A stretch of DNA of 64,000 nucleotides from Bacillus spizizenii TU-B-10. Lineage in GTDB: Bacteria > Bacillota > Bacilli > Bacillales > Bacillaceae. Positions 30,644-34,533 of the stretch are shown piece by piece. The notes under the pieces were generated by a model that saw only the letters and a list, made by a program, of their open reading frames with translations, was not told the DNA's origin and did not search any database. The stretch covers positions 1,627,001 through 1,691,000 of the forward strand of contig NC_016047.1 of assembly GCF_000227465.1 (NCBI RefSeq), read 5' to 3'. The translations under genes were made by a program, and so were the position numbers. Position 1 is the first letter of the stretch; each line of letters starts with the position of its first letter.

Positions 30644-33600
30644 TTGTCACAGCAATCGATACAAAAAGTATTAGTAGCAAACAGGGGAGAAATTGCAATC
30701 CGAATATTCCGGGCGTGTACCGAGTTGAATATTCGTACAGTTGCGGTCTATTCAAAAGAAGATTCCGGTTCCTACCATCGGTACAAAGCGGATGAAGCAT
30801 ACCTGGTCGGTGAAGGGAAAAAACCGATTGATGCTTATCTGGATATTGAAGGTATCATAGATATTGCGAAAAGAAACAAAGTCGATGCGATTCATCCGGG
30901 ATACGGTTTCTTATCTGAAAATATCCATTTCGCGAAACGATGTGAAGAAGAAGGCATCGTGTTCATTGGTCCAAAGTCCGAACATCTAGATATGTTTGGT
31001 GACAAGGTAAAAGCGCGTGAGCAGGCAGAAAAAGCTGGAATCCCTGTGATTCCCGGAAGCGACGGCCCTGCAGAAACGCTTGAAGCAGTCGAACAGTTTG
31101 GACAAACTAATGGTTATCCGATTATCATTAAAGCTTCACTGGGCGGCGGCGGCCGTGGTATGCGGATTGTCAGATCTGAAAGTGAAGTCAAAGAAGCATA
31201 TGAGCGTGCAAAATCAGAGGCAAAAGCAGCCTTTGGCAATGATGAAGTGTATGTAGAAAAATTGATTGAAAATCCGAAACATATTGAGGTTCAGGTGATT
31301 GGTGACAAGCAGGGCAATGTCGTCCACCTTTTTGAGAGGGACTGTTCTGTTCAAAGACGCCATCAAAAAGTCATTGAAGTGGCGCCGAGTGTCTCCCTGT
31401 CACCTGAATTAAGAAACCAAATTTGTGAAGCGGCAGTTGCGCTTGCGAAAAATGTAAACTATATAAACGCTGGTACGGTAGAGTTTCTTGTTGCAAACAA
31501 CGAATTCTACTTTATTGAAGTAAACCCTCGCGTACAAGTTGAACACACGATTACAGAAATGATTACAGGTGTCGATATCGTTCAAACACAGATCCTTGTT
31601 GCCCAAGGACACAGCCTTCACAGCAAAAAAGTAAATATTCCTGAGCAAAAGGACATTTCTACAATCGGCTATGCCATTCAGTCACGGGTTACGACTGAGG
31701 ATCCGCAAAATGATTTCATGCCTGATACAGGAAAAATCATGGCTTACCGCTCAGGCGGCGGTTTTGGTGTCCGTCTTGATACCGGAAACAGCTTTCAAGG
31801 CGCCGTGATCACGCCATATTATGATTCACTTCTCGTTAAGCTTTCAACTTGGGCTTTAACGTTTGAACAGGCGGCGGCCAAAATGGTCCGAAACCTTCAG
31901 GAGTTTAGAATCAGAGGCATTAAAACAAACATTCCGTTCCTTGAGAACGTTGCAAAGCATGAGAAGTTCCTGACAGGGCAATATGATACGTCTTTCATTG
32001 ATACAACACCTGAATTATTTAATTTCCCTAAACAGAAAGACCGCGGAACAAAAATGCTCACTTACATCGGCAATGTGACAGTGAACGGTTTCCCTGGAAT
32101 CGGGAAAAAAGAAAAACCGGCGTTTGACAAACCAATAAACGTAAAAGTAGACATAGATCAGCAGCCTGCCAGAGGAACAAAGCAAATTCTCGATGAAAAA
32201 GGTGCTGAAGGGCTTGCAAATTGGGTTAAGGAACAAAAATCTGTCCTTTTAACTGATACGACATTCAGAGACGCTCACCAATCATTATTGGCGACGAGAT
32301 TCAGAGCGCATGATTTGAAAAAAATCGCGAATCCGACGGCTGCGCTATGGCCTGAGCTATTCAGTATGGAAATGTGGGGAGGCGCGACCTTCGATGTAGC
32401 CTACCGATTCCTGAAAGAAGATCCGTGGAAGCGATTGGAGGACCTTCGCAAAGAAGTGCCGAATACCTTATTCCAAATGCTACTTCGTTCATCTAACGCG
32501 GTCGGCTATACGAATTATCCGGATAATGTGATTAAAGAATTCGTGAAGCAATCTGCTCAATCCGGTATTGATGTGTTCCGTATTTTCGACAGCTTAAACT
32601 GGGTAAAAGGGATGACGTTAGCCATTGATGCCGTTCGGGATACCGGCAAAGTGGCAGAAGCTGCGATTTGTTACACGGGAGATATCCTTGACAAGAACCG
32701 TACGAAATATGATCTTGCTTATTATACGTCGATGGCGAAGGAGCTTGAGGCTGCCGGAGCCCATATCCTTGGAATTAAAGATATGGCAGGGCTGTTAAAA
32801 CCGCAGGCTGCATATGAACTCGTTTCTGCTTTGAAAGAGACGATCGACATTCCGGTTCACCTTCATACGCATGATACGAGCGGCAACGGTATTTATATGT
32901 ACGCAAAAGCTGTTGAAGCCGGCGTTGATATCATAGACGTGGCGGTCAGCTCAATGGCAGGATTAACGTCTCAGCCAAGCGCGAGCGGATTTTATCATGC
33001 GATGGAAGGGAACGCCCGCCGTCCGGAAATGAATGTCCAAAACGTTGAAATGCTGTCTCAATATTGGGAGTCAGTTCGTAAATACTATAGCGAATTTGAA
33101 AGCGGAATGAAGTCTCCGCATACTGAAATTTATGAGCATGAAATGCCTGGGGGCCAATACAGCAACCTGCAGCAGCAGGCGAAGGGAGTAGGCCTAGGCG
33201 ACCGCTGGAACGAAGTCAAAGAAATGTACAGACGCGTCAACGATATGTTCGGCGACATCGTGAAGGTCACGCCTTCCTCTAAAGTAGTCGGAGATATGGC
33301 GCTCTACATGGTGCAAAACAATCTGACTGAAAAGGACGTTTACGAAAAAGGCGAACAATTAGATTTCCCTGATTCTGTCGTGGAGCTTTTCAAAGGAAAC
33401 ATCGGCCAGCCTCATGGCGGATTCCCGGAAAAACTACAAAAGCTGATCTTAAAAGGACAGGAGCCGATTACGGTCAGACCGGGAGAACTGCTTGAGCCGG
33501 TATCCTTTGAAGCGATCAAACAGGAATTTAAAGAGCAGCATAACTTGGAGATTTCAGATCAAGATGCTGTGGCGTATGCCCTTTATCCTAAAGTCTTCTC

Positions 33601-34090
33601 TGATTATGTGAAAACGGCAGAAAGCTATGGAGACATTTCGGTATTAGATACGCCGACATTCTTCTATGGCATGGTATTAGGTGAAGAAATAGAAGTGGAA
33701 ATTGAGCGCGGAAAAACACTGATCGTTAAGCTGATTTCAATCGGTGAGCCTCAGCCTGATGCCACTCGCGTCATTTATTTCGAACTGAACGGACAGCCGC
33801 GTGAAGTTGTCATCAAAGATGAAAGCATTAAGTCTTCCGTTCAGGAAAGACTGAAAGCGGACCGGACAAACCCAAGCCACATCGCAGCCTCCATGCCTGG
33901 AACGGTTATTAAGGTATTGACTGAAGCAGGTACAAAAGTCAATAAAGGTGATCATTTGATGATCAATGAAGCGATGAAAATGGAAACAACGGTTCAGGCG
34001 CCTTTCTCAGGAACAATCAAGCAGGTTCATGTGAAAAATGGCGAGCCGATCCAAACGGGAGATCTGCTTCTCGAAATTGAAAAAGCATAA
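30644..34090 (+). CDS. pycA: Pyruvate carboxylase
   Basis: A 1,148-residue biotin enzyme making oxaloacetate from pyruvate, bicarbonate and ATP. Order: biotin carboxylase domain 1-460 (KVLVANRGEIAIRIFRAC; ATP loop LGGGGRGMR), the carboxyltransferase domain from about 530 (LLTDTTFRDAHQSLLATR, metal-binding HLHTHDTSGN), the allosteric/PC-tetramerisation region, and a C-terminal biotin carboxyl carrier domain with NEAMKMET carrying the biotinyl Lys. TTG start after GGGGGAG. It feeds the TCA cycle together with pdh. Confidence 0.98.
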   Translation: MSQQSIQKVLVANRGEIAIRIFRACTELNIRTVAVYSKEDSGSYHRYKADEAYLVGEGKKPIDAYLDIEGIIDIAKRNKVDAIHPGYGFLSENIHFAKRCEEEGIVFIGPKSEHLDMFGDKVKAREQAEKAGIPVIPGSDGPAETLEAVEQFGQTNGYPIIIKASLGGGGRGMRIVRSESEVKEAYERAKSEAKAAFGNDEVYVEKLIENPKHIEVQVIGDKQGNVVHLFERDCSVQRRHQKVIEVAPSVSLSPELRNQICEAAVALAKNVNYINAGTVEFLVANNEFYFIEVNPRVQVEHTITEMITGVDIVQTQILVAQGHSLHSKKVNIPEQKDISTIGYAIQSRVTTEDPQNDFMPDTGKIMAYRSGGGFGVRLDTGNSFQGAVITPYYDSLLVKLSTWALTFEQAAAKMVRNLQEFRIRGIKTNIPFLENVAKHEKFLTGQYDTSFIDTTPELFNFPKQKDRGTKMLTYIGNVTVNGFPGIGKKEKPAFDKPINVKVDIDQQPARGTKQILDEKGAEGLANWVKEQKSVLLTDTTFRDAHQSLLATRFRAHDLKKIANPTAALWPELFSMEMWGGATFDVAYRFLKEDPWKRLEDLRKEVPNTLFQMLLRSSNAVGYTNYPDNVIKEFVKQSAQSGIDVFRIFDSLNWVKGMTLAIDAVRDTGKVAEAAICYTGDILDKNRTKYDLAYYTSMAKELEAAGAHILGIKDMAGLLKPQAAYELVSALKETIDIPVHLHTHDTSGNGIYMYAKAVEAGVDIIDVAVSSMAGLTSQPSASGFYHAMEGNARRPEMNVQNVEMLSQYWESVRKYYSEFESGMKSPHTEIYEHEMPGGQYSNLQQQAKGVGLGDRWNEVKEMYRRVNDMFGDIVKVTPSSKVVGDMALYMVQNNLTEKDVYEKGEQLDFPDSVVELFKGNIGQPHGGFPEKLQKLILKGQEPITVRPGELLEPVSFEAIKQEFKEQHNLEISDQDAVAYALYPKVFSDYVKTAESYGDISVLDTPTFFYGMVLGEEIEVEIERGKTLIVKLISIGEPQPDATRVIYFELNGQPREVVIKDESIKSSVQERLKADRTNPSHIAASMPGTVIKVLTEAGTKVNKGDHLMINEAMKMETTVQAPFSGTIKQVHVKNGEPIQTGDLLLEIEKA

Positions 34091-34133
34091 AAAACAAGAG
34101 TGTATATCATTTGATATACACTCTTGTTTTTTA
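34089..34133 (+). terminator. Terminator of pycA
   Basis: A long near-perfect stem of about 19 bp (AAAACAAGAGTGTATATCA with its complement) and T run, beginning at the pycA stop. Confidence 0.93.
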
Positions 34134-34151: not shown

Positions 34152-34506
34152 ATGAAAATTGTGTGGTTTAGAAGAGATCTAAGGCTTGAAGACAATACAG
34201 CACTGTCACAAGCCATTTCCTATATAAAACAAAAACAGGCTTATCTGCTGCCGGTCTTTCAGATACTTTGTAGTATGATATGAGCCATAAATATTTCTTA
34301 AAGGCACTATCTTTGTATGAAGCATGGCAAAAGGGCTCTATCTGCACATTTTTATCATGAAGCAATACTTATGTTTCGCAGGCTGTGCGGTTTTTTAGCA
34401 TGATGACAAAAAATACGGAGCGCAGCGAGCCGCTCAATGATCATCAAGTCCAGCGGAGAGGCTGGCCATTGAAACGTATGAAGCGGCAAAAAACATGATA
34501 CAAAAA
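34152..34506 (+). pseudogene. Decayed deoxyribodipyrimidine photolyase gene
   Basis: An ATG at 34152 starts MKIVWFRRDLRLEDNTAL and continues SQAISYIKQKQAYLLPVFQ, the N-terminal signature of class I CPD photolyases/cryptochromes. A stop is reached at 34283. A second frame, 34280-34360, reads SHKYFLKALSLYEAWQKGS, resembling the next photolyase helix. Near the end, 34427-34456 reads EPLNDHQVQR and, shifted one frame from 34456, ERLAIETYEAAKNMI, matching the photolyase C-terminal pattern PEPIVDHKxxRxxALxAYxxAK. An intact gene needs about 1.4 kb, so roughly 1 kb of the core is deleted. No function is likely. Confidence 0.75.
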
Positions 34507-34533
34507 AGACCAAAGCGCAGAAAGCTTTGGTCT
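34502..34533 (-). terminator. Terminator of ctaA
   Basis: On the minus strand GACCAAAGC, loop TTTCTGC, GCTTTGGTC, followed by TTTTTTG. Confidence 0.9.

Follow-up and report, generated by a model that had tools for sequence, protein, structure and literature searches.

A decayed class I photolyase gene between pycA and ctaA in Bacillus spizizenii, and the probable repeated loss of phr in the genus

Does the absence of photolyase from Bacillus subtilis and its relatives go back to a loss, and if so, how often has the gene been lost in the genus? Passages of two earlier papers describe phrB in B. pumilus and no homologue in B. subtilis or B. licheniformis (PMC1976550, PMC3682946). We address this question through the 450-bp interval between pycA and ctaA of Bacillus spizizenii TU-B-10 (G000; 4,207,222 bp in a single contig), which lies in the 64,000-nucleotide stretch of that genome analysed here (the window). 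A first-pass annotation had placed a decayed photolyase gene in this interval. The DNA from 34152 to 34503 is colinear with both ends of a photolyase gene, and terminator-like hairpins flank it on each side:

30644..34090, + strand: pycA, pyruvate carboxylase, the upstream neighbour (open reading frame; TIGR01235, 2138.6 bits)
34089..34132, no strand: inverted repeat with an adjacent T run (terminator-like) after pycA (alignment)
34152..34280, + strand: N-terminal piece of the photolyase remnant, still open over 43 codons, stop at 34281–34283 (PF00875, E 4e-9)
34281..34425, + strand: frame-shifted continuation of the remnant, about codons 51–108 of the intact gene (alignment to G036 DNA)
34424..34427, + strand: junction of the core deletion of about 1.03 kb, between GGAGCGCAG and CGAGCCGCTC (alignment to G036)
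34426..34503, + strand: C-terminal piece of the remnant, EPLNDHQVQR, a 2-bp insertion, then RLAIETYEAAKNMI (alignment; blastn)
34507..34533, − strand: terminator-like hairpin downstream of ctaA
34541..35461, − strand: ctaA, COX15/CtaA family, the convergent neighbour (open reading frame; PF02628, 132.7 bits)

The frame opened by ATG 34152 starts MKIVWFRRDLRLEDNTAL, and its 43 codons match the Pfam profile DNA_photolyase (PF00875) with 37.1 bits (E 4e-9; cut-off 26.6), the match spanning only positions 2–33 of the 164 in the profile. In a search of the whole genome, the remnant was the sole PF00875 match at E ≤ 0.001 (33.6 bits, E 9.7e-8). At the nucleotide level, the 365 bp between the terminators aligned to the intact gene of a relative, G036, in pieces of 238, 91.5, and 36.5 bits, and blastn placed the C-terminal piece at positions 1363–1429 of that gene (91.5 bits); the best score among 500 dinucleotide shuffles of the same stretch was 27.4 bits. 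These results agree with the first-pass annotation, which had read a photolyase N-terminus from ATG 34152 in a frame ending at 34283 and had seen EPLNDHQVQR and the C-terminal motif in different frames; both were found, separated by the 2-bp insertion. Its identification of the ends of a class I photolyase-type gene was correct. Only the right-hand limit had to be moved, as photolyase DNA ends at 34503 rather than at 34506, and the ctaA hairpin begins at 34507.

In a pairwise alignment with the G036 interval, terminators included, the whole interval showed 88.8% identity over 447 columns. Within the gene, the remnant carries 10 indels relative to G036, seven of which are not multiples of three, when the large deletion is counted as one, though the aligner splits it around a 5-bp scrap. 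This deletion comprises 1,031 bp (positions 391–1426 of the G036 interval), which bears out the earlier description of a missing core of about 1 kb with at least two frameshifts. The stop codon is lost, the sequence directly upstream of the start has changed, and the open N-terminal piece of 43 codons compares with an expected frame of about 470. The N-terminal PF00875 match places the remnant in class I photolyase ancestry. The FAD-binding domain (PF03441), needed for a working enzyme, gave no match in G000 in a profile search of our comparison panel of 44 genus genomes (one per species); the profile matched 19 of the 44, with G039 and G034 only partial. Because the FAD domain is missing and the frame is shifted, the remnant would encode no working enzyme, and its disabling lesions mark it as a pseudogene, relatives having an intact orthologue in this position. 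Bacterial pseudogenes can form by internal deletion. The window copy is like others of this kind in its core deletion, frameshifts, lost stop codon, and intact neighbours, and unlike them in that here several lineages within a single genus carry distinct deletions of one gene.

An intact gene at the locus in relatives, which the first-pass annotation had proposed as a check, was found: a gene of about 477 codons adjoins ctaA in 16 of the 44 genomes, namely G036 on the subtilis side and 15 pumilus-type genomes. In 15 of the 16 it lies between pycA and ctaA; the contig of G019 stops before pycA, and pycA–ctaA intervals were accordingly measured in 43 of the 44 genomes. PF00875 matched 18 genomes in all: these 16, the window's remnant, and G008, where the match lies elsewhere. 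The latter (L160, 3102–4307) is a photolyase homologue of low similarity (25% identity) at a different site, in a genome with no copy between pycA and ctaA. The G036 protein contains both Pfam photolyase domains, its residues 5–474 align with E. coli photolyase (PDB 1dnp; 301 bits, E 1e-88), and it retains the residues aligned to E. coli W306, W359, N378, and W382, of which we take N378 to be an FAD-contact residue and the three tryptophans to form the Trp triad. It is thereby similar to the class I CPD photolyase of the E. coli PhrB type; in contrast, the window copy lacks the core of about 1.03 kb with nearly all of PF03441 and is frame-shifted. With both domains, N378, and the 306/359/382 triad in place, the G036 gene appears to be an intact class I photolyase orthologue, for which light-dependent CPD repair is predicted only.

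The copies of the pumilus-type genomes share 50–52% protein identity with that of G036. In nine within-pumilus pairs, the dN/dS of phr ranged from 0.09 to 0.18 (the tenth listed pair, G036–G023, was saturated), with pycA lower at 0.03–0.06, and the pumilus-group gene is under purifying selection and clearly constrained. Most of these genes have a TTG or GTG start. Residue 382, presumably the FAD-proximal tryptophan of the electron-transfer triad, is W in G036 and E. coli and F in all 15 pumilus-type photolyases (L135–L149). In G021, G001, and G018 (L136, L137, L146), about 200 extra bases separate pycA from phr, and in G021 terminator-like sequence is repeated at both sides of these bases upstream of phr. 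By the description in the source passages, B. pumilus SAFR-032 carries phrB (BPUM_1378), and the pumilus-type genomes studied here likewise carry a photolyase gene, located by ctaA.

The first-pass annotation had further proposed that the lineage lost its photolyase by internal deletion. The deletion itself stands, but it is not specific to this lineage. When the subtilis-side pycA–ctaA intervals were aligned to that of G036, the junction GGAGCGCA-[G/C]CGA[G/T]-CCGCTC was common to G000, G005, and G011 (B. inaquosorum), and it was present at the same length, with substitutions, in G035, which we take to be B. subtilis 168. G033 (Bacillus sp. N13C7) is compatible with the same junction and has a small extra deletion, and in G014 (Bacillus sp. 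SKDU12) the left edge is identical and more DNA has been deleted on the right; G038 (B. tequilensis) is uninformative because the whole region is lost. In a tree built from the genes flanking the locus only (leaders trimmed, stops masked), the subtilis clade was separated with support 100, and G036 and G039 were sisters, also with support 100. The branch on which the deletion occurred is short (0.012 substitutions per site) and fully supported; the deletion postdates the split from G036/G039 (flanking dS 0.31–0.46) and predates the radiation of the clade (dS 0.19–0.43). Among the seven subtilis-clade remnants, that of the window is the least diverged from G036 (JC 0.165 versus dS 0.310), divergences of such gappy remnants being noisy.

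Other lineages have lost different parts of the gene. G039 lost positions 67–1187 of the G036 interval and retained the C-terminal part, and G015 (B. mojavensis) and G009 (B. halotolerans) retain pieces from gene position 933 on that are absent from G039 and the subtilis clade. Each of these three lineages holds gene DNA lost in the other two, and the gene was therefore still whole at their split. G034 (B. stratosphericus) lacks 907 bp relative to G020 (positions 420–1326 of the G020 interval), and G043 lacks 1,223 bp relative to G024 (positions 274–1496 of the G024 interval), each at 91.7% identity; the two pairings have support 100 and 97, and both G020 and G024 are intact. This makes at least five separate losses, in the subtilis clade, G039, mojavensis/halotolerans, G034, and G043. 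We found no common pattern of microhomology at the large deletion junctions (0 bp in G039, 0 in G034, 5 in G043, and 0–1 in the subtilis clade).

Separate losses probably occurred as well in B. atrophaeus (G003), the amyloliquefaciens group, and the licheniformis group, which would bring the number to eight, provided that their common ancestor carried the gene. Where the intact gene is lacking (28 intervals), 15 intervals were submitted to a Smith-Waterman shuffle test (200 shuffles each) and 14 were scored, G002 being too short. Twelve of the 14 exceeded every shuffle; the score of B. atrophaeus, whose interval shows a colinear N-terminal trace, was reached by 1 of 200 shuffles, and that of G032 by 151 of 200. 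As no photolyase trace was seen in the amyloliquefaciens-type intervals (90–127 bp in five genomes) or in those of the ten licheniformis-type genomes (64–147 bp; 843 bp in G030), the ancestral gene can only be inferred for these groups. By eye, the long G030 interval (L157) appears to contain a decayed IS200-type insertion.

As a whole, we consider it very probable that phr was ancestral at this locus, that its core was deleted in the subtilis clade and its ends decayed, and that it was lost separately elsewhere. Judging from synteny, a functional class I photolyase gene would have occupied the interval in the common ancestor of the subtilis and pumilus groups. On the subtilis-clade branch, the core and nearly all of the FAD domain were removed by a deletion of about 1.03 kb, as the shared junction shows. 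Small indels subsequently eroded the leftover ends, and the terminator-like hairpins next to pycA and ctaA remained in place. Independent deletions removed the gene in G039, mojavensis/halotolerans, G034, and G043, as shown by retained pieces that are mutually incompatible or by a position among relatives whose gene is intact.

Other explanations fit these data less well. Chance resemblance or an assembly error is practically negligible, given that the 238 bits of the remnant far exceed the shuffle maximum and that the deletion junction was found identical in other genomes. The hairpins preserved at both ends of the interval might suggest that the remnant was retained for a new role, as a small RNA, a small protein, or terminator spacing, but interval length varies from 279 to 463 across the ten other remnant-bearing subtilis-side genomes and falls to the 90–127 of the five amyloliquefaciens-type ones, indels are scattered throughout the remnant, and divergence between remnants is mostly above flanking dS; we therefore regard a retained role as very improbable. 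The pycA-side inverted repeat, for its part, is also present in the eight other rows of the interval alignment (subtilis-clade, G036, and G039). Somewhat less remote, though still improbable, is one ancient loss across the subtilis, amyloliquefaciens, and licheniformis side, after which G036 and B. cabrialesii regained the gene by recombination. Outside the pumilus-type genomes intact copies at the locus are indeed rare (1 of 27 genomes), and the interval does seem to be exchanged between species (G005/G011, below). Against a regain stand the complementary DNA retained in the subtilis clade, G039, and mojavensis/halotolerans, whose common ancestor had the gene whole, and the remnant of G039, which at JC 0.100 from G036 fits a sister lineage (flanking dS 0.172). 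Moreover, the 50–52% protein identity between G036 and the pumilus-type copies argues against a recent import from that group.

The possibility that weighs more heavily on separate, vertically inherited losses is that the subtilis-clade deletion allele spread among species by homologous recombination, live and dead alleles having coexisted and B. cabrialesii having kept an intact one; on balance we doubt this scenario, without considering it far-fetched. The G005 and G011 remnants (L119, L121) differ by JC 0.014 against a flanking dS of 0.225, have at least 11 indels relative to G036 in common (16 and 14 listed), and their interval has roughly 2 differences per 100 bp, compared with roughly 6 in the adjoining 500 bp to the left and to the right. 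This similarity is best read as a short recombination tract between species, although some outer coding windows (+1200 to +1800) are as similar as the interval itself, and because the allele looks exchanged we count the two remnants once. By where it branches in the tree, G005 may itself be B. cabrialesii. In contrast, when the remaining 20 pairs of the seven subtilis-clade remnants are compared, 19 diverge by more than flanking dS (e.g. G000–G005, 0.286 versus 0.197), the exception being G033–G038 (0.246 versus 0.344), and this excess looks like old shared inheritance.

The records of B. cabrialesii speak for exchange. Among the best 120 of 7,999 scored proteins, there were a 99% identical intact protein (P0002, 18 members, Bacillus sp. 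RHFS10) and an 87% identical intact one from B. cabrialesii (P0003, 6 members). P0004, from the same species (2 members), has 60 residues fewer than P0003, in frame, as well as changes at two sites where the seven remaining aligned sequences all agree; it looks like a photolyase gene in early decay. According to the ANI values excerpted from PMC11769180 (strain TE5 to inaquosorum 93.82, spizizenii 93.74, tequilensis 93.67, and 168 92.36), B. cabrialesii falls inside the clade, and an intact P0003 in a species so near to inaquosorum, spizizenii, and tequilensis strains a single loss in the subtilis clade. It is thus a serious possibility that species have exchanged live and dead alleles. A broader and speculative version, which we consider rather unlikely, is that the photolyase locus of the B. 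subtilis complex is a long-lived presence/absence polymorphism across species, with live, dying, and dead alleles swapped via homologous recombination in the conserved pycA and ctaA flanks; if true, photoreactivation would have been lost many times and would be regainable by recombination.

Returning to ancestral phr with separate losses, its most likely cause would be weak, redundant selection. Excision repair can remove dimers without light, spore photoproduct can be removed by SplB, and a UvsE-type endonuclease is present on the subtilis side, so that an enzyme working only in light may be easily lost. All 44 genomes, whether or not they carry phr, have the spore photoproduct lyase family (PF20903); losing phr therefore does not go hand in hand with losing the repair of light damage in spores. 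UvdE (PF03851) was found in 34 of the 44, with no match in the licheniformis-type genomes G006, G007, G008, G010, G012, G017, G027, G028, G030, and G037. A DPRP-type photolyase (PF04244) was considered as a substitute and rejected, as it occurs in 0 of the 44 genomes. The expectation of the first-pass annotation that a dated loss would be informative about niche was not borne out: the date is relative only, and even this is blurred because the remnant appears to have been exchanged between species. Because many different species are affected and every genome of the panel has spore photoproduct lyase, niche cannot be read from the loss.

The passages of the sources on phrB of B. pumilus SAFR-032 are silent on remnants in B. 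subtilis relatives, and the passages considered from PMC1976550, PMC3682946, PMC10083409, and PMC11769180 make no mention of one. Nor did titles and abstract openings in the literature, a scope that leaves out preprints and most subscription journals, yield a report of such a remnant. The window copy is an ordinary pseudogene whose enzyme is well known and whose history can be read unusually clearly; it contributes a deletion junction shared between genomes, several losses that are incompatible with one another, and a sign that alleles were exchanged. At this locus the absence of photolyase from B. subtilis is seen to be a loss that left fossil DNA in place, probably also in strain 168 (G035). 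Loss of phr recurred in several Bacillus lineages, others retaining a constrained gene in this position, and the locus offers a clean case of bacterial gene erosion between two conserved terminators. The resulting matched set of intact, partly deleted, dead, and erased copies allows one to ask what makes light repair dispensable in spore formers.
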